Source: Oscillospiraceae bacterium
GTDB lineage: Bacteria > Bacillota > Clostridia > Oscillospirales > Ruminococcaceae
Direction: 5' to 3'
NCBI GenBank assembly: GCA_021200565.1
Contig: JAJQGJ010000014.1
Coordinates: 1-64,000 of the forward strand
DNA length: 64,000 bases
In this document: piece after piece, positions 46,810-60,052 of the stretch
Layout of the letters: every line of letters starts with the position of its first letter
Numbering within the stretch: position 1 is the stretch's first letter
Program-made: the position numbers and the translations under genes
The notes under the pieces: model-generated
The model's database searches: none
Told to the model about the DNA's origin: nothing
What the model saw: only the letters and a program-made list of their open reading frames with translations

Positions 46810-46897
46810 GGAGAGTTGTCCGAGAGGTCGATGGTGCAGCACTCGAAATGCTGTAGACCGCAAGGTCTCTAGGGTTCGAATCCCTAACTCTCCGCCA
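46810..46897 (+). tRNA. tRNA-Ser (anticodon CGA)
   Basis: An 88-base tRNA with CCA encoded. Acceptor GGAGAGT pairs with ACTCTCC; anticodon arm GCAGCA CTCGAAA TGCTGT; long variable arm (AGACCGCAAGGTCT) as in serine tRNAs; T arm AGGGTTCGAATCCCT. Reads UCG codons. The element integrase lies 97 bases downstream, convergent. Confidence 0.95.
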
Positions 46898-46993: not shown

Positions 46994-48157
46994 TTAACAG
47001 TCAGACTCCATGCCCAAACCACTGAGCATTGCATCTGCTGAGTTGAGTTTGGAGCTGTAGTCGAGATGAGCGTAGATGTTTGCCGTCGTTGAGAAGTCAC
47101 TGTGACCGAGCCACTCTTGGATCTGCTTCATCGGAACACCGTTTGCCAAGAGAAGCGAGGCACAACTATGTCTCAAGTCGTGGAATCGGATGTGCCTGAA
47201 GCCGTTGCTCTTAAGAAATCGTGAAAAGCCACTTGTGACAGCCTGTGGCGTTATAATATCGCCAAGCTCGTTGACGCAGACGTAATCAAGATATTCCTTG
47301 TTGTAACAACGCCCACAAAGACGACGATTTTCCTCCTGTTCTTCTCTTTTGATTAAGAGCCGTTCTTTAACGAAAGGCACGAGAGGAAGCGTCCTCATAC
47401 TTGACTTCGTTTTCGTTGTGTCTGATGCTACGAGAGTGAGTTTTCCATCCAGATTGCATGATGTAACTGTGTGCTGGACGGTGATGGTATTCCGTTCAAA
47501 GTCAATGGCATCCCATTTCATCCCTATTGCTTCACTTCGCCTGAGTCCATAGAACGCGCCAAACATAATGGGCAATTCAAGATTAGTTCCTTTGGAAGCT
47601 TCAAAGAGTGCATTGATTTCATCGGCATCATAGAAGCTTCCAACGAAGCGCTCTTTCCTTGGACGTTCAACCTTGTCCGCCGGATTCACATCTATCAGGT
47701 CTGTCTTCACGGCATACTTCAATGACCTGTGAATATTTGCGTGATAGTGAATTACCGTCGAGGCACTGACACGTTCCAATTCGTGAAGATAAAACTCCTG
47801 AATGTCGGTAGCTCTCAAATCCTTGAGGGCTATTTCTTTTTCACGGAAGTACGGTGCAATAACACCCTTTACCATCATCGAGTAGGAAGAATATGTCGGA
47901 ACCGCCACAGTGCTTTTTACAATCTCAAGCCACTGTTCTATGAAATCGGCGAACAAGATGTCGCCATTCATGGTTTTTGGCTCGTCTGGAACAAAGCTAC
48001 GTCTGGCATCCGCAAGGAATGCTTCGGCTTTCTTCTTGTTTCCCTTTACGGGAAGACCGGTTTTGAGCCACTTGGTTTTCCTTTTTCCAAGAGAATCGGT
48101 ATAACTTAATACGGCGTAGTAATAGCCGCTTTTTTCACTTAAATGTCCTGCTACCAT
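46994..48157 (-). CDS. Tyrosine recombinase (integrase)
   Basis: A 387-residue integrase. Start MVAGHLSEKSGYYYAV is fixed by GAAGGAGGTTACATTT; the upstream in-frame extension is non-family sequence. An N-terminal arm-binding domain (residues 1-60) and SAM-like core-binding domain precede the catalytic domain with FYGLRRSEAIGM (Arg I), HDLRHSCASLLLANG (His-x-x-Arg) and LGHSDFSTTANIYAHLD (Tyr nucleophile). Similar in size and order to Tn916-type Int. Confidence 0.93.
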   Translation of the reverse strand: MVAGHLSEKSGYYYAVLSYTDSLGKRKTKWLKTGLPVKGNKKKAEAFLADARRSFVPDEPKTMNGDILFADFIEQWLEIVKSTVAVPTYSSYSMMVKGVIAPYFREKEIALKDLRATDIQEFYLHELERVSASTVIHYHANIHRSLKYAVKTDLIDVNPADKVERPRKERFVGSFYDADEINALFEASKGTNLELPIMFGAFYGLRRSEAIGMKWDAIDFERNTITVQHTVTSCNLDGKLTLVASDTTKTKSSMRTLPLVPFVKERLLIKREEQEENRRLCGRCYNKEYLDYVCVNELGDIITPQAVTSGFSRFLKSNGFRHIRFHDLRHSCASLLLANGVPMKQIQEWLGHSDFSTTANIYAHLDYSSKLNSADAMLSGLGMESDC

Positions 48158-48287
48158 AAATGTAACCTCCTTCTTTGTGTAGCAGATACACCTACTTATG
48201 CCGGGTTCTATTATACCAGAACCGGGTTCAAAATGGAGGACGTTCTGACACACTTTTTTGTAAATTTTTTGTGTCCAAAAAATTGGG

Positions 48288-48521
48288 TCATGCCGGTTTC
48301 GCACAACCGATGCAGAGATAAGTAAAAAGATGAGCCTTTGGAATGCGATAGGCTCTGCCAACCTTGAGGCAACAGATTTTGCCTTCACGCAAAATGCGAT
48401 AGCCTGTTTTAGTGCTGATGCCGAGTATTTCACACATCTGCTCAATACTCATTACGTCGGGATAATCCTTAAGCATGAGTCTGTGTGCTTCTCTCTGAGA
48501 TATTTTTGAAGCGGTATTCAT
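48288..48521 (-). CDS. Excisionase-type helix-turn-helix protein
   Basis: A 77-residue protein, start MNTASKISQREAHRL after TTAAGGAGGTGAGACGG. PDVMSIEQMCEILGISTKTGYRILREGKICCLKVGRAYRIP is the MerR-like excisionase fold that bends DNA and directs Int toward excision. It lies 130 bases upstream of int on the same strand. Confidence 0.85.
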   Translation of the reverse strand: MNTASKISQREAHRLMLKDYPDVMSIEQMCEILGISTKTGYRILREGKICCLKVGRAYRIPKAHLFTYLCIGCAKPA

Positions 48522-52908: not shown

Positions 52909-53244
52909 ATGCTTATGGCGAACAGAACGAGACCAATACGCATAGAGTTCTGCGTATCAGAAAACGAACATCGCCTTATCAAATCGAAGATGGAGCAACT
53001 CGGCACAAAGAATATGGGAGCATATCTTCGCAAGATGGCGATTGACGGCTACATCATAAAAGTGGATTACACCGAACAGAAAAAGCTTGCAGCAGCGGTC
53101 AGCAATGCCGCTTCAAACATCAATCAGGTTTGCAAGCGCATCAACTCGACCGGGCATTTTTACGAAGACGATGTTACGGAACTGAAAGAGAGACAAAAGG
53201 AAATATGGCAGTTACTAAAATCAAACCAATCCAAGGAACTGTAG
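52909..53244 (+). CDS. MobC-like relaxosome protein
   Basis: A 111-residue protein: ribbon-helix-helix-like N-terminus (RIEFCVSENEHRLIKSKMEQ, NMGAYLRKMAIDGYI) and a C-terminal helix with NQVCKRINSTGHFYEDDVTELK, the MobC (PF05713) pattern. Its end overlaps the relaxase start by 40 bases. Confidence 0.85.
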   Translation: MLMANRTRPIRIEFCVSENEHRLIKSKMEQLGTKNMGAYLRKMAIDGYIIKVDYTEQKKLAAAVSNAASNINQVCKRINSTGHFYEDDVTELKERQKEIWQLLKSNQSKEL

Positions 53245-54572
53245 ACAAGGCGATTGCATACATAACTGACCCTGAGAAAACTGATGATACGGTTCTTGTA
53301 TCTTCGTTCGGTTGTGCAGCTGCGGATAGTGCTGCCAATGAATTTGAATGGACAAGAAATCTTGCCGAGCAACGTGGAGCGATACCTCCAAAAGTAATTG
53401 CGAGGCATCTCATTCAGTCATTTGATGTGGGAGAGGTTTCGCCGGAGGTTGCACATGAAATCGGCAAGCAATTTGCGGATGAATTGCTGAAAGGAAAGCA
53501 TGAATATGTAATTGCCACTCACATAGACAAAGGTCATTGCCATAATCATATTATCTTCAATGCCGTCAACTTTGTGGATTATCATTGCTACAGAAGCAAC
53601 AAGCGAACATACCAAGAGTTGAGGCAACTGAGTGATGATATTTGCAAGGAGCATGGGCTGTCCGTTATTCCTCCGTCACAAAGCAAAGGCATGGAATACA
53701 AGGAATATTCCGAAGCAAAGAAAGGCACGAGCTGGAAGCAAAAGCTCAAGCAGACGATTGACCGGCTGGTCATCACTGCGAAAGATTATGATGAGTTTTT
53801 GAAGCTCATGCAGGAAGCAGGATATGAAGCTAAACCCGGCAAATACATTTCATTCCGAGCTGAGGGGCAAGAGCGTTTTACCCGTGCAAAAACCATCGGC
53901 GAGAATTACACCGAGGAGCGCATCAAGGAACGCATTCAAGGACGTAATCCCAAAAAGCAAAGACAACTCACGGAACGCAAAGGCATCTCTCTTATTATCG
54001 ACATTGAGAACAGCATCAAGGCTCAGGAGAGCAAGGGCTATGAACACTGGGCGAAGATAAATAATCTCAAGGAGGCTGCCAAAACTCTCAACTATCTCGC
54101 AGAGAATAATCTTCTTCAGTATTCCGCCCTTGAAGCTAAGGCGGATGACATCCATGGTTCTTATGACCGCACTGGTGAGGAGTTGAAAAGAGTTGAAGCG
54201 AGGCTCCGTGAAGTTCAACCACTCATCAAGAATATCGGAAATTACAGGCAGCTTAAGCCGATCTATGATGACTATCAGAAAGCAAAAAACAAGCCCGACT
54301 TCCGGGTAAAGCATGAAGCCGAGCTTGTCATTTTTGAAGCGGCAAAAAGTTCGCTCCTCGCCACTCAAGGGAGCGAAAAGCTTCCAAGCCTGAAAGCTCT
54401 CCACGCTGAAAAGAAGCAGCTTCTTGAAGAACAGCAGAGGCTCTACGACGAAAGAGCCAAGCTTAAAATGCAGGTCAAGGAGATTGATACTATCAAGGCA
54501 AATGTTGATAGCTATCTAAATCCGAACGCTTCACAGGAGAGGGAGAGTGAGAGGAGCAGCGAGTTGGAATAA
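53205..54572 (+). CDS. Relaxase (MobA/VirD2-like)
   Basis: A 455-residue relaxase. Start MAVTKIKPIQGTVDKAIAYI, typical of the family, inside mobC; the longer frame is mobC shadow. HIDKGHCHNHIIFNAVN near residue 110 is the metal-binding His cluster of motif III; the N-terminal third carries the nicking domain and the C-terminal part is a long coiled coil (LREVQPLIKNIGNYRQLKPI...). A terminator follows. Confidence 0.9.
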   Translation: MAVTKIKPIQGTVDKAIAYITDPEKTDDTVLVSSFGCAAADSAANEFEWTRNLAEQRGAIPPKVIARHLIQSFDVGEVSPEVAHEIGKQFADELLKGKHEYVIATHIDKGHCHNHIIFNAVNFVDYHCYRSNKRTYQELRQLSDDICKEHGLSVIPPSQSKGMEYKEYSEAKKGTSWKQKLKQTIDRLVITAKDYDEFLKLMQEAGYEAKPGKYISFRAEGQERFTRAKTIGENYTEERIKERIQGRNPKKQRQLTERKGISLIIDIENSIKAQESKGYEHWAKINNLKEAAKTLNYLAENNLLQYSALEAKADDIHGSYDRTGEELKRVEARLREVQPLIKNIGNYRQLKPIYDDYQKAKNKPDFRVKHEAELVIFEAAKSSLLATQGSEKLPSLKALHAEKKQLLEEQQRLYDERAKLKMQVKEIDTIKANVDSYLNPNASQERESERSSELE

Positions 54573-54910: not shown

Positions 54911-56485
54911 TTAAGTCTGCAGCCCATCTATGATTGTTCTGCACAATTTCAGATCTTTCACTTTTATATTTGTGATTAACTCTCTTATTCTTTGTGCGGT
55001 ATTATTAGTTTGACACATACTATACTTTATCACCAGTGAAAGTAAGACATCGGTCATGCGCATCAATTCGGTACTCAAAACCAGTATATGTTCATCATCG
55101 TCAACGAGTAAACTACGTTCACATAGGAACTTAACCCTCTCATTCATTATCCTCTTGTGTTCTACTAAAAAATATGCCATTCGCACATCATGAAGAAAAT
55201 ACGCAAAGTTATTATCGCTTTCAGTAATGGTATCATACACAGAGATGCCAAAAGTACATGAGTCTCTCTTTACGCATATGCCGCGATAACGTTCTGAACT
55301 ATCCGTACCACTGATATAGTCTTCTAAAAGGTTCTTAATCAATGAAACGTCAAGCTTAACAGGGAAGTATCCCATATCAAATTTCCTCAGAATAACATCT
55401 GATTTTATATTGTCATTAGCTTTTTGTATGTTCCCAATACTTTCACATGAAATATCCAGCTTGGAAAGATGGTTATAACCTATTAGATTTACTGTATTAC
55501 TTTCATCGTTATAACCATATATCATGTTGTAATGATAAAAATCACGCTTGCTATATGCTGACCTATTATTTATAAATCTCTCGTTAAGTGATAAATCCAT
55601 ATAGAATCCTAAGTCAACACACTTATGAAGTAAATCTTCAAATCTTATGTCTAAAGAAGATAGTAAACTATTAGGGATACGGTGTTCTTCTATAAACGGA
55701 TTATCTCTAGAAAAGCCTAACATATCTACTGGATAAAAATAATCTATAGGAACTACACTCCGAGAAAAGGAACTATTACAGTAGATTTGCAGATGGTTAG
55801 AATACAACCAGTTGCAATAGAAGAACTCATCAAAATCTAAATGTATTCCTACAATACAATTCTCCCCAATATCTACGTAACTACAGTCATTCAACTGCCA
55901 ATGCTCTCCATCAAATGAGGAATATGAATAAACCTTAGATTTTCTCTTACTAAGCCTCAACCAATATTTTTCATCGTCTTGACTGACAATTTGAACAAGA
56001 CTAAGATAATTGGAGCCATTGCGTTTAAAAAGCCCTGCTTTTTTGTGATTTCCAAATTTGTAAGGCGACAATTCCTTGTGTTTTGCTTCCGATGACATTT
56101 CACTTATGGAAGACGCCGCAAAAACAGAAACATATGCCCATGGCGAAGTATAGCGTTGCTCCTTAACACAAAATGAAATGTCAACATCACTATCAACATT
56201 AGTATATAAATTACCTTTGAGAATTGATGCTTCGTTCGATGCAATAAAACACAGCTCATTGTTGCTAAAGGAATAAGATAACCCTTTTCTCTCGCTATCA
56301 AAGCGAAATGCACTGTCGTCAGATATTATTCTTCCGTTTATTCTAACATCATCAATTCTTGCTACAGTTTTATTGACATATTTATCAGCAGTAGCGATTG
56401 AGCAATTGTAAGACTCGTATCCGTAGCAAGATAAAATGGGTTTCTTGTTAATCGGCAACTCTATATTTGACGTATATTTTTCCAT
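54911..56485 (-). CDS. Composite BtrH-like (papain-like fold) protein with lectin-like insertion
   Basis: A 524-residue protein, start MEKYTSNIELPINKKP after AAGGAGAGAC. The N-terminus (LPINKKPILSCYGYESYNCS) and the C-terminal half (NNRSAYSKRDFYHYNMIYGY, DISCESIGNIQKA, VRMAYFLVEHKRIMNERVKF) look to me like proteins with a butirosin BtrH N-terminal-type fold, with Cys, His and Asn/Asp in the expected order. Between them a beta-rich insert (about 45-260) has YSYSSFDGEHW as in DUF1349/LamG domains. It would be a transferase or protease acting on the neighbour peptide. The family call is from memory and tentative. Confidence 0.5.
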   Translation of the reverse strand: MEKYTSNIELPINKKPILSCYGYESYNCSIATADKYVNKTVARIDDVRINGRIISDDSAFRFDSERKGLSYSFSNNELCFIASNEASILKGNLYTNVDSDVDISFCVKEQRYTSPWAYVSVFAASSISEMSSEAKHKELSPYKFGNHKKAGLFKRNGSNYLSLVQIVSQDDEKYWLRLSKRKSKVYSYSSFDGEHWQLNDCSYVDIGENCIVGIHLDFDEFFYCNWLYSNHLQIYCNSSFSRSVVPIDYFYPVDMLGFSRDNPFIEEHRIPNSLLSSLDIRFEDLLHKCVDLGFYMDLSLNERFINNRSAYSKRDFYHYNMIYGYNDESNTVNLIGYNHLSKLDISCESIGNIQKANDNIKSDVILRKFDMGYFPVKLDVSLIKNLLEDYISGTDSSERYRGICVKRDSCTFGISVYDTITESDNNFAYFLHDVRMAYFLVEHKRIMNERVKFLCERSLLVDDDEHILVLSTELMRMTDVLLSLVIKYSMCQTNNTAQRIRELITNIKVKDLKLCRTIIDGLQT

Positions 56486-56500
56486 GTCTCTCCTTGTCAC

Positions 56501-57646
56501 TCAGTCTGAGATAGCATAAAGTACCGTTTCTGTTACCCAATATGAGTGATGAGCAATTTTGAACCTATATGAACTATTTATGCTGTGCAATAGTATGGGA
56601 ATATTCCAAAGGTCAGCAAGATGGTGATACAGACACACGGCAAGTTTAGGCTTGTATTTGGATAGAGTATCTCTTAATCCCTCTACAGCCTGCACTTCAG
56701 CTCCCTCAATATCCATTTTAATGAATGTTGGGGCTATCTTCAAATCATCACCACGAAAGCAATAAACATCATAACATTCATCTACAACGTCATATGTATC
56801 CCAAGGAAGAACTCCGTAAACATGGGAAGATCCATACTCAGCAAATCGGAATGATATATTTCCAGTTTTATCAAAAAGGCCAGCATTAAAATACGTTATC
56901 TGCTCAGCATCGGAAGTATTTTTGACAAGCTTCCCAAAGCAACTTGTCTCAGGCTCAAACGCATATATATGCTTATAATTTTTGCAATGCTTCGTAAATT
57001 CACCTATTGTAGCTCCATCGTATGCACCAACGTCTAAGTATATCTCGTTTTCAAGATTACCGATCAACTTTTCGTTAAAATATTGTTCTTCGCAAAATAC
57101 ATCAAAATAGAAACTGCAATTCGTGATTTTCTTGGCAAGAAGTCGAAGGAAAATATACCTTTCCCTTTCATCGCTCATTAGCTCGTAGGCTGTTTGACAC
57201 CTATCAATATTAGATTCTATAATTTTGCAATCATCGTCATTCCTGCGTACATTTCGGTTAATCACGTTTAGGTAGTACTCAATTTGGGGAAAGCAAATAA
57301 TATTTTTACACGGAATCAAATTCCATTCTAAGCACCAGAAGTCGGATTGCCAGCCATCCTTATCCGACAATATGTAAACATAATTCTCCCTATCCTTAAT
57401 CTTAAGTAAGTCCGCAAACGATTTTACGGGTACTCCACTGCAATTCGTATCATCACCGTAATCATCACAGTGCCTGTAAACAATATCCGACTTTATTCCA
57501 AGCTTCTCGTTAAGCTCACATAAAAATCGCTCAGTTTCTAGTTCTGAATATGGATAGATGCATACCTTTAAGCTGAGTAAACTTTTCATATACTCCACAA
57601 TGTCACAGTGCATCCTTTCTATCTCGCTTTCAATCAGTTCAAGCAT
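56501..57646 (-). CDS. FkbM-family SAM-dependent methyltransferase
   Basis: A 381-residue protein. Residues 200-370 form the FkbM methyltransferase: IYLDVGAYDGATIGEFTKHC (SAM loop), HIYAFEPETSCFGKLVKN and TFIKMDIEGAEVQAVEG, then KPKLAVCLYHHLADLW. The first 190 residues are not recognised and may bind the substrate. It starts 100 bases after the ABC gene and ends next to the BtrH-like gene, so all are on one transcript. FkbM enzymes usually methylate hydroxyl groups; here the peptide is a plausible substrate. Confidence 0.82.
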   Translation of the reverse strand: MLELIESEIERMHCDIVEYMKSLLSLKVCIYPYSELETERFLCELNEKLGIKSDIVYRHCDDYGDDTNCSGVPVKSFADLLKIKDRENYVYILSDKDGWQSDFWCLEWNLIPCKNIICFPQIEYYLNVINRNVRRNDDDCKIIESNIDRCQTAYELMSDERERYIFLRLLAKKITNCSFYFDVFCEEQYFNEKLIGNLENEIYLDVGAYDGATIGEFTKHCKNYKHIYAFEPETSCFGKLVKNTSDAEQITYFNAGLFDKTGNISFRFAEYGSSHVYGVLPWDTYDVVDECYDVYCFRGDDLKIAPTFIKMDIEGAEVQAVEGLRDTLSKYKPKLAVCLYHHLADLWNIPILLHSINSSYRFKIAHHSYWVTETVLYAISD

Positions 57647-57671
57647 TTCTCATTCATTCCTTTACAATTGT

Positions 57672-57717
57672 TTATTTTTTATGCCAAGCGCAAAAGCTAA
57701 AGTCTTGCCTTTGCGCT
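57672..57717 (-). terminator. Hairpin between ABC and methyltransferase genes
   Basis: AAGCGCAAA and TTTGCGCTT arms followed by GGCATAAAAAATAAAC. No U tract, so it may be a processing or attenuation site that lowers expression of the downstream genes. A 24-codon frame (57662-57736) overlaps it and is not considered coding. Confidence 0.5.
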
Positions 57718-57747
57718 TAGTATAGACAATACTCATAGTTCCGACCT

Positions 57748-59556
57748 TTACGATTCCTCATTCGCCTTGACATAGAACTCCGACTGCTTATCGAACATTT
57801 CAGTGTAAAGACCGCCCTGAGCGTAAAGCTCCTTATGTGTGCCATAGCCGACCATATGTCCATCTTGGAACACTGCAACCCTGTCGGCGAGCTGAACTGC
57901 AGAAAGGCGGTGGGTTATAAGGACGGCACACTTGTCCTGAATCATTGAGTTGAACTGTGAGTAGATTTCGTACTCGGCGTTTGGATCAAGTGCGGCAGTA
58001 GGTTCATCCAAGAGATAGATTTCGCCTCCGTGATACTGTGCTCTTGCGATTGCAATACGCTGTCCTTCCCCTCCCGATGGCTTGAAGCCTTCTTCGTCAA
58101 CAAGTTTTCCGACATATGTGTCATAACCCTTCGGCAACTTCTCCACCAACTTTGAAAGACCACACCGCTTGCAGACCTCGTCAAGACGTTCACCGTCGCA
58201 CGGCTCGCCGGTAAGTGTAATATTCTTCTCCAGTGGCAACTCATACTCAACGTAATCCTGAAATACAGGTGCGAACAGCCGCTGATACTTTTCGTAGTCA
58301 TACTCGTTTATGTTTTTGCCGTTAAGCAAAATCTCTCCCTCGGTCGGCGTATAAAGCCTTGTGAGAAGCTTTATGAATGTTGATTTTCCAGCACCGTTTT
58401 CTCCGACAACGCAGAGATGCTCTGAGCCTTTGAGTGTGAGATTCAGATTTTTCAAAGCATATACTTCACTGCCGGGATATTTGAATGAAACATTCTTAAA
58501 TTCGATTGTAGAGTCCTTGTCATAGACAGGTGTTTCAGTTCCGCAACCATATCCCTTTCTTGGAAGCGACATGAATTCGAGATACTCCTGAATATTGAGG
58601 CTTTTAGCCGAAAGCGACAGATATGTATTGAATACATTAGACAAAGCCGATGAGAACTGGCTGACAGCCGAAAGATATATTGTCATGCTGCCTATTGCAA
58701 GTGAATAGTATATGACTCTGATAATGAGATAAGCGTATAAAACTACTTGTTGTACAAGTGAGGTGATGGTAGAGACAATACCACCAATTGACCATGAACG
58801 CTTACCCTGGATGATGATATTGGCAAACTTATACTTGTTTTCTCTGAAAAGGCTTATGAGATATTCTCCTGCTGAGAAAAGCCTGTTTTCTTTGCCATAT
58901 GCCTGCTCGTACATCATGTAGGTTAATCCCCAGTCACGGTTTGAATAAACTGCATTTTTCTTGTTCAGCTCAAATTGCTTCGCATTAAGCTTCTTCGTAA
59001 CTGCCGAGTTGATAAGCACCATAGTCAATATCAAAATCACTATCAATGGGTGTAGTGTTGCAATGATAGATGAAATTGCAATGAGAGTGAACACAGCAGT
59101 AACTGCTTGGAATATGAGATCAGTGTAATTCATAATATCACTTAACGTGTCACTGGCACGATTTTTCATAACAATTATATTGGGATTCTCAAAATTCTCA
59201 TAATCCATCGTCATCAGATGGCGATAAAAATCCGACTCAAAGCTGATGTCCAAGTCCCATCTGATTTTGTTGAGCCAATAATCGCCCCATGAATTTACAA
59301 CATAAGCAATTAACGAATTTAAAACCAAGAGACCGACGTACAGAACCACCATACCGATGCTGTCACCATCGACAAGTGCATTGATAATCCATCCGGGGAG
59401 TACCGTGTACATAACTGTTATCAATGCCTGTAGCACTGATATTAAGCCTTTGAGGAAAAGATATAGCTTTCCTTTAGGCGTTCCCACAACGAAGGACAGC
59501 ACAAACTTTGTACACTTCCATGTGTTCTTTACTTTTTGATTGTCGGGCTTTTTCAT
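57748..59556 (-). CDS. ABC exporter (membrane and ATPase domains fused)
   Basis: A 602-residue half-transporter. Six membrane helices in residues 20-320, ATPase domain with Walker A GENGAGKSTFIKLL near 385, signature PSGGEGQRIAIARA near 495, Walker B IYLLDEPTAALD and ITHRLSAVQLADRV. It lacks the N-terminal C39 peptidase domain of bacteriocin exporters. Start MKKPDNQKVKNTWK follows AAAGGAGGAGCAGT, 105 bases after the peptide gene. It probably exports the peptide as a homodimer. Confidence 0.88.
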   Translation of the reverse strand: MKKPDNQKVKNTWKCTKFVLSFVVGTPKGKLYLFLKGLISVLQALITVMYTVLPGWIINALVDGDSIGMVVLYVGLLVLNSLIAYVVNSWGDYWLNKIRWDLDISFESDFYRHLMTMDYENFENPNIIVMKNRASDTLSDIMNYTDLIFQAVTAVFTLIAISSIIATLHPLIVILILTMVLINSAVTKKLNAKQFELNKKNAVYSNRDWGLTYMMYEQAYGKENRLFSAGEYLISLFRENKYKFANIIIQGKRSWSIGGIVSTITSLVQQVVLYAYLIIRVIYYSLAIGSMTIYLSAVSQFSSALSNVFNTYLSLSAKSLNIQEYLEFMSLPRKGYGCGTETPVYDKDSTIEFKNVSFKYPGSEVYALKNLNLTLKGSEHLCVVGENGAGKSTFIKLLTRLYTPTEGEILLNGKNINEYDYEKYQRLFAPVFQDYVEYELPLEKNITLTGEPCDGERLDEVCKRCGLSKLVEKLPKGYDTYVGKLVDEEGFKPSGGEGQRIAIARAQYHGGEIYLLDEPTAALDPNAEYEIYSQFNSMIQDKCAVLITHRLSAVQLADRVAVFQDGHMVGYGTHKELYAQGGLYTEMFDKQSEFYVKANEES

Positions 59557-59661
59557 ACTGCTCCTCCTTTTGGGACATAAAATGCATCATAAAATCCATT
59601 TGTTGTGGTAATGCCATAAAGCAAAAGTGATAGTTGCAAAATCACATTGTACTACAACATA

Positions 59662-59829
59662 TCACGCTGGTGATGCATTGTTACAGGTAGAAGCGGTTGC
59701 ACAACTACCACCATTGGTAAGCGCTGAACTATAAACTCCCTTTGAAATATCTGCGTTACTACAGTGTCCTGTGCAACTGCTTCCCATTAATTCGTATAGT
59801 TCACCGTTTGTACTCTTTTCAAAATTCAT
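59662..59829 (-). CDS. 55-residue cysteine-containing RiPP-type precursor peptide
   Basis: A small frame with a perfect ribosome binding site (AGGAGGTGATAAC, then ATG) at the head of the minus-strand cargo operon. The leader-like part MNFEKSTNGELYELMGSSCT contains acidic-aliphatic ELYELM. Four cysteines (19, 23, 43, 49) lie among many Ser, Thr, Gly, Asn and Ala. A TNGG motif at 38-41 is followed by the candidate core SCATASTCNNASPA. The layout, small size and exporter neighbour point to a ribosomally made, modified peptide. No known precursor family is recognised. Confidence 0.72.
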   Translation of the reverse strand: MNFEKSTNGELYELMGSSCTGHCSNADISKGVYSSALTNGGSCATASTCNNASPA

Positions 59830-59853
59830 GTTATCACCTCCTACTACAATATA

Positions 59854-59884: not shown

Positions 59885-60052
59885 AACTCTTTTCCTGCTA
59901 TGTGGTTATTTCAAAAATAAAATCTACTGAACCCACCTCATTTCTACTAACCGGTTGCAACTATCACTACGCATTATGTTCGATTCAATTACTGTATAAC
60001 TTTAATATCTCTAGGGTATCCGATCGTCACGAAGCATTATTCTTTGAAAATT

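Follow-up and report, generated by a model that had tools for sequence, protein, structure and literature searches.

The main finding of this work is an operon of four genes that, judging by its sequence, probably directs the synthesis and export of a short peptide rich in cysteine. It lies on the minus strand of a 64,000-nucleotide stretch (hereafter, the window) of the genome of an Oscillospiraceae bacterium (GenBank assembly GCA_021200565.1, contig JAJQGJ010000014.1, positions 1 to 64,000) and encodes, in this order, a 55-residue peptide, an ATP-binding cassette (ABC) exporter, an FkbM-family methyltransferase and a 524-residue protein (Table 1). A candidate precursor, putative modifying enzymes and an exporter stand side by side, which is the general layout of gene clusters for ribosomally synthesized and post-translationally modified peptides (RiPPs). 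As our best explanation, held as a whole at a probability of roughly 45%, we hypothesize that the operon was acquired horizontally for one exported peptide and that it represents a reduced variant, without the radical S-adenosylmethionine (SAM) enzyme, of the clostridial radical SAM/TIGR04066 "peptide maturation" clusters. We consider this reading, in which the cluster type is already known in part, more probable than the new class of exported modified peptide that had been raised in the first-pass annotation of this DNA.

Maturation and export of a peptide are supported by association, because relatives of the 524-residue protein recur with exporters, TIGR04066 proteins, radical SAM enzymes, acyl carrier proteins (ACPs) and short open reading frames (ORFs). 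Counting the genome of the window itself, a match to this protein was present in four of 149 related genomes, in nine of 396 of the same family and in 24 of 394 of the same order; the three sets overlap, and two genomes within the 24 (G112 and G506) match only the lectin-like insert described below. One scan of genome contigs found again only the relative in G070, a Clostridia metagenome-assembled genome. For 33 other family ORFs, from 28 fetched loci, the neighbouring genes were labelled by a phmmer comparison with exemplars; a 55-residue match in G051 (L086) was left out of the 33, the loci of G493, G555 (two places), G687:C74, G129:C19, G129:C31 and G529:C37 lie outside the fetched set, and L135, fetched for context, is probably no true relative (no aligned His, longest branch). 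An ABC exporter of at least 480 residues was located within 8 kb of 17 of the 33 family ORFs; seven had an AMP-ligase (together with an exporter in one case), three a GT2 gene, one an ACP, S26 and radical SAM group, and six none of these. The chance level for an exporter within 8 kb is about 12-13% by a hand estimate from exporter positions in the window's own genome, and the resulting binomial P of 1e-7 is a rough guide only, since the sequences counted are related to one another and some of the exemplars were drawn from the same loci. TIGR04066 matches, below the curated cut-off, were obtained in seven loci (L082, L120, L122, L123, L125, L126 and L127) and L122, L123, L125 and L127 in addition matched radical SAM RiPP-maturase models, again below the cut-offs. 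G368 and G315 have two exporters each, together with PqqD/radical SAM or ACP/S8-TIGR04066 proteins.

Short ORFs with a strong ribosome binding site (RBS), picked by eye, were found in five of the 13 exporter-linked loci (L082, L120, L122, L123 and L125), all of which hold a TIGR04066 protein alongside, so that the pairing of short ORFs with related exporter sets, on which the first-pass annotation had made its proposal depend, does exist. Together with the exporter counts, this suggests that an exported peptide with a BtrH-like partner recurs. When seven such peptides and that of the window were compared (28 pairs, 500 shuffles), five pairs between different genomes were equalled by only 0-5 of the 500 shuffles, with a basic N-terminus and an aromatic motif in common. 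G315 has a 58-residue ORF with an 8/8 RBS match 24 bp upstream of the family gene; its peptide has no Cys and pairs with none of the others.

Other arrangements around the relatives are recorded here in their own right. Tandem pairs of short Cys-rich ORFs with strong RBS, at L122 (3588-3855) and L123 (12512-12817), stand beside radical SAM, ACP or TIGR04066 genes and are likely uncatalogued precursors of radical SAM RiPPs. At L080 (4830-5567), a radical SAM/SPASM frame adjoins the insert-bearing relative of G368; it matches its profiles only from about position 75 on, so the N-terminal part is missing from that frame. A set composed of a short family member, a 209-residue protein and a GT2-type glycosyltransferase of 872-873 residues, with no exporter, is repeated at L064, L117 and L118, and a second set, composed of a family member, a small ACP, an AMP-ligase and a thymidylate-kinase-like gene, at L084, L085, L121, L131, L132 and L123 (4419-8189), often with a 190-residue protein that has a FYYDTPD-type motif, recognized by eye. 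At L065 (8428-9630), an ACP-FkbH fusion is found beside a radical SAM protein, an S26-like protein and two family proteins, which, given the role of FkbH, suggests a carrier-bound unit of the glyceryl type.

The 524-residue protein (length from the ATG; an upstream GTG would give 529 residues) has no naming model in Pfam, NCBIfam, PHROGs or PADLOC. It had been described as BtrH-like; no model gives that name to the window protein, which BtrH_N (PF14399) does not match, and what stands is a relationship of the family to BtrH_N that is below the cut-off and seen in relatives only (L083, two proteins; L117; L125). Full-length relatives with the insert occur in G070 (45%), G315 (24%) and G368 (22%), and the tree places the window, G070, G462, G368 and G315 in one clade (support 97/97). 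Two low-confidence structure models both matched CcbD and CtaG, and on these models a BtrH/CcbD/CtaG-like fold is likely. The protein also has a candidate papain-like site, Cys20-His318-Asn338, with C20 and H318 present and Asn at the third place; after removal of residues 38-224 the Cys-His distance is about 111 residues, as compared to 112 in CcbD (C19-H131) and 117 in CtaG (C11-H128). Sequence searches of the PDB gave chance-level matches for alignments A6 and A7, and E values of 0.047 and 0.061 for alignment A4, the latter for a beta-xylosidase stretch that meets the insert. BtrH, CcbD and CtaG perform carrier-dependent acyl or aminoacyl transfer in small-molecule pathways (PMC10318531, PMC12945683, PMC6772006). 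The 524-residue protein is like them in its likely fold, in the His in place and in the Cys near the N-terminus, and unlike them in its DUF1349-type insert, in the absence of the Cys from most of its kin and in neighbours that point to peptides. Phage, plasmid or viral cargo was also considered and rejected, the protein having no phage match, no match in three viral-contig scans with alignments and a single plasmid match, a weak one (22%) in Paenibacillus beside nonribosomal peptide synthetase (NRPS) genes.

The insert is common to the four full-length members, and a profile built from these matches two open frames of 1980 residues in other genomes (E 4e-8 and 5e-8). One of the two was scanned and proved to be a GH97 protein that carries DUF1349 and GH43_C2 domains, and hhalign of the insert against those DUF1349 domains gave E 2e-6 and a probability of 89%. 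The Pfam DUF1349 model reached E 9e-4 on the insert alone, below its cut-off, with a weak match at residues 168-214 of the whole protein, and Foldseek on a weak whole-protein model listed 3mep and lectins. On these profile and model comparisons the term lectin-like, which the first-pass annotation had introduced, is supported at the level of the fold.

Regarding the peptide, its start follows AGGAGGTGATAAC, with an 8/8 RBS match, in agreement with the perfect RBS ascribed to it earlier. The window contains two instances of the combination of AGGAGGTG, ATG and an ORF of at least 40 residues, at 59829 and at 48521 on the minus strand; in 60 windows shuffled by dinucleotides the average number was 0.03. 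No family match was obtained in Pfam, NCBIfam, PHROGs or PADLOC, nor any match in viral contigs. No classical leader is seen, and the basic N-terminus leader of the relatives' candidate precursors is missing from it. We infer that this peptide is the precursor, and within the comparative argument it has the weakest support.

The exporter matches profiles for the ABC membrane and ATPase domains only, with no C39 peptidase, which confirms its description as an exporter without a peptidase domain. It is otherwise ordinary, and the closest exporter detected is a resident paralogue (C9:121788-123587, L066), 54% identical overall. Identity is about 33% over residues 1-300 and 97% over residues 541-600 (72.7% in DNA over the 3' part), and this unevenness suggests that the exporter is a mosaic that recombined with the resident gene. 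Of 392 genomes, the own genome alone gave a match at E ≤ 1e-185, a strict cut with three candidates scored per genome, under which orthologues may be missed. A known anti-phage defence system was rejected, since the exporter is the sole operon protein matched by PADLOC, and only in its generic ATPase part. It was also observed that exporters of this family occur with a response-regulator-receiver-like protein of 126-134 residues at L066 (7888-15285, own genome, contig C9), L125 (10932-15108) and L126 (5250-8849); a TIGR04066 protein is also beside them at L125 and L126, and no member of the 524-residue family is alongside the own-genome paralogue.

The FkbM domain was recognized above the cut-offs of both Methyltransf_21 (44.9 bits; cut-off 22.7) and TIGR01444 (66.5 bits; cut-off 37.7), and the protein is nearest to the common FkbM proteins of about 360 residues. 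Its N-terminal 190 residues had been regarded as novel, a view that we do not retain, as FkbM matches occur in 66 of the 149 genomes (own included), mostly in open frames of 340-400 residues and mostly starting near query residues 140-156. Usable plus-strand ORFs came from 19 of 29 loci, and in eight of the nine other rows listed from these the N-terminal domain is comparable in size and register, L034 being without the pattern. The direct sequence match of the N-terminus is weak (E 0.03); the architecture is not new. According to its report, EreM from the pythonamide cluster was then the only FkbM-family methyltransferase to have been characterized from a RiPP cluster; its activity is N-methylation of the peptide backbone (PMC9259500, PMC11285071). 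Both enzymes are FkbM-family methyltransferases beside a ribosomal peptide gene; the precursor type and the partner enzymes of EreM are different.

Among known systems, CLI_3235-type clusters (TIGR04066, TIGR04068, TIGR04069) have been described for SacP23 of Paenibacillus polymyxa (PMC10731318) and in Roseburia (PMC4573289), and no BtrH-like protein is named for either in the text available from these sources. Like the window, they combine a short Cys-rich precursor with an ABC exporter, and what connects the two is that TIGR04066 proteins, ACPs and radical SAM maturases accompany relatives of the 524-residue protein in their clusters. The window differs in having an FkbM protein and the 524-residue protein. 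None of its four proteins is a TIGR04068-like radical SAM maturase (the single SPASM protein of the own genome is encoded on a different contig), no TIGR04066 protein, ACP-related protein or S8 protease was matched among them in Pfam or NCBIfam, and the peptide has no NCBIfam match as a CLI_3235-type precursor. Therefore, the locus was not filed as a TIGR04066/CLI_3235 cluster; it may work by the same logic. A lanthipeptide was rejected too, as no lanthionine cyclase or dehydratase is present among the four proteins, and a LanC acting in trans is opposed by the absence of PF05147 from the own genome, a genome-wide search made with that model and not with the one for the LanM dehydratase.

In the mechanism that we propose, the 524-residue protein would bind the peptide and then attach an acyl or aminoacyl group to it, or cut or ligate it, possibly through the papain-like site. 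The FkbM protein would perhaps methylate the product, EreM being the one RiPP precedent; any carrier protein that the reaction requires would have to be supplied by genes outside the operon, and the ABC exporter would secrete the product. A more specific version, in which an amide synthase of the BtrH/CcbD/CtaG fold with a lectin-like insert performs the defining step on a ribosomal peptide with the help of FkbM, by a carrier-style acyl transfer of which the related clostridial clusters would hold fuller versions with ACP and radical SAM enzymes, seems to us unlikely.

Several observations weigh against the reduced-variant hypothesis. The exact set of peptide, exporter, FkbM and 524-residue protein was seen once, in the window, and FkbM adjoins none of the 33 other family ORFs. 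The operon encodes no carrier protein or ACP. The G070 relative has no exporter or FkbM on the side kept by its contig, the best exporter elsewhere in G070, other contigs included, is 26% identical, and G462 is a fragment with stops. No convincing homologue of the peptide was found, none being better than E 0.02 in the 149 genomes, and its best pair among the seven candidate precursors (G529a) was equalled by 10 of 500 shuffles, a similarity that may be explained by composition. The structure models are weak (pLDDT 44 and 62; rmsd 7-9 Å) and are not matched to CcbD by Foldseek at E ≤ 0.001, and in an uncertain alignment Cys occupies the C20 position in four of 34 rows, His being kept in 33. 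A search of the minus strand from the peptide to lysS detected no promoter-like site.

The operon could also be a decayed remnant, that is, a radical SAM peptide cluster that lost its radical SAM enzyme, protease and ACP on a mobile element and now makes no product. Relatives often have the radical SAM, ACP or TIGR04066 proteins that the window lacks, G462 is itself a decayed copy and the exporter looks recombined, but all four ORFs are open and strong RBS are kept at the peptide and the exporter, and we judge decay improbable. It is doubtful as well that the 524-residue protein and FkbM tailor a small molecule or glycan, with the short ORF as a regulatory leader or an unrelated frame. The strength of the RBS and the Cys/Gly-rich composition of the short ORF, the short ORFs beside exporter-linked relatives and the lack of an ACP or adenylating enzyme in the operon speak against such tailoring, in spite of the small-molecule roles of BtrH, CcbD and CtaG, the Paenibacillus relative beside NRPS genes, the AMP-ligase and GT2 neighbours (7/33 and 3/33) and the carbohydrate-binding type of the insert. 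The least probable alternative is a plain bacteriocin, exported unmodified, with FkbM and the 524-residue protein as immunity proteins or passengers: a peptide and an exporter with no class-defining enzyme, and no LanC in the genome, would agree with it, whereas the exporter has no C39 peptidase, the peptide shows no classical leader and the 524-residue family occurs with maturation enzymes.

The operon is situated between the relaxase gene and lysS. From about 54.5 to 59.5 kb the GC content is 33-44%; it is 43-46% in the mobilization genes and 50% from 60 kb onwards. The ORFs, GC content and family matches bear out the earlier description of four co-directional minus-strand genes in a low-GC stretch near mobilization genes. 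Sequence downstream of lysS, visible in seven of 12 loci (which were not turned), is shared by two of these, both from same-genus genomes, the shared part ending near 60022. The integrase, the NikA/MobC-like protein and the relaxase lie to the left of the operon and, with the tRNA-Ser, fit a mobilizable element. Elements that have inserted at a tRNA gene usually show this arrangement, with the tRNA directly next to a phage-type integrase; the longest exact direct repeat at tRNA-Ser was 12 bp, unconvincing as an att repeat, with no second copy of the tRNA end. Two terminator-like sites were found, both on the plus strand.

Table 1. Features of the operon and of the mobilizable element in the window.
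Feature	Position	Strand	Basis
Candidate precursor peptide, 55 aa, Cys/Ser/Thr-rich, 4 Cys	59662..59829	-	ORF and RBS
Strong RBS of the peptide, AGGAGGTG just 5' of ATG	59834..59843	-	Sequence and rarity count
ABC exporter, 602 aa, membrane and ATPase domains	57748..59556	-	Pfam, NCBIfam
FkbM-family methyltransferase, 381 aa, Methyltransf_21 at aa 205-343, divergent N-terminal domain of common size	56501..57646	-	Pfam, NCBIfam, genome comparison
BtrH/CcbD/CtaG-fold-like protein (likely fold), 524 aa	54911..56485	-	Family, tree, models
DUF1349-type concanavalin-like insert, about aa 38-224 of the 524-aa protein	55814..56374	-	Profiles, hhalign, Foldseek
NikA/MobC-like protein and relaxase of mobilizable element	52909..54572	+	Family match
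Phage-type integrase	46994..48445	-	Family match; adjoins tRNA-Ser(cga)
tRNA-Ser(cga)	46810-46897		Adjoins integrase

The reduced-variant hypothesis connects clostridial clusters for peptide maturation with the likely fold of the carrier-dependent amide synthases of aminoglycoside, lincosamide and closthioamide pathways, a link that our searches of the open-access literature did not find. If proteins of the 524-residue type do acylate or ligate ribosomal peptides, this would be a new step in RiPP biosynthesis and could explain the presence of acyl carrier proteins in TIGR04066-type clusters.

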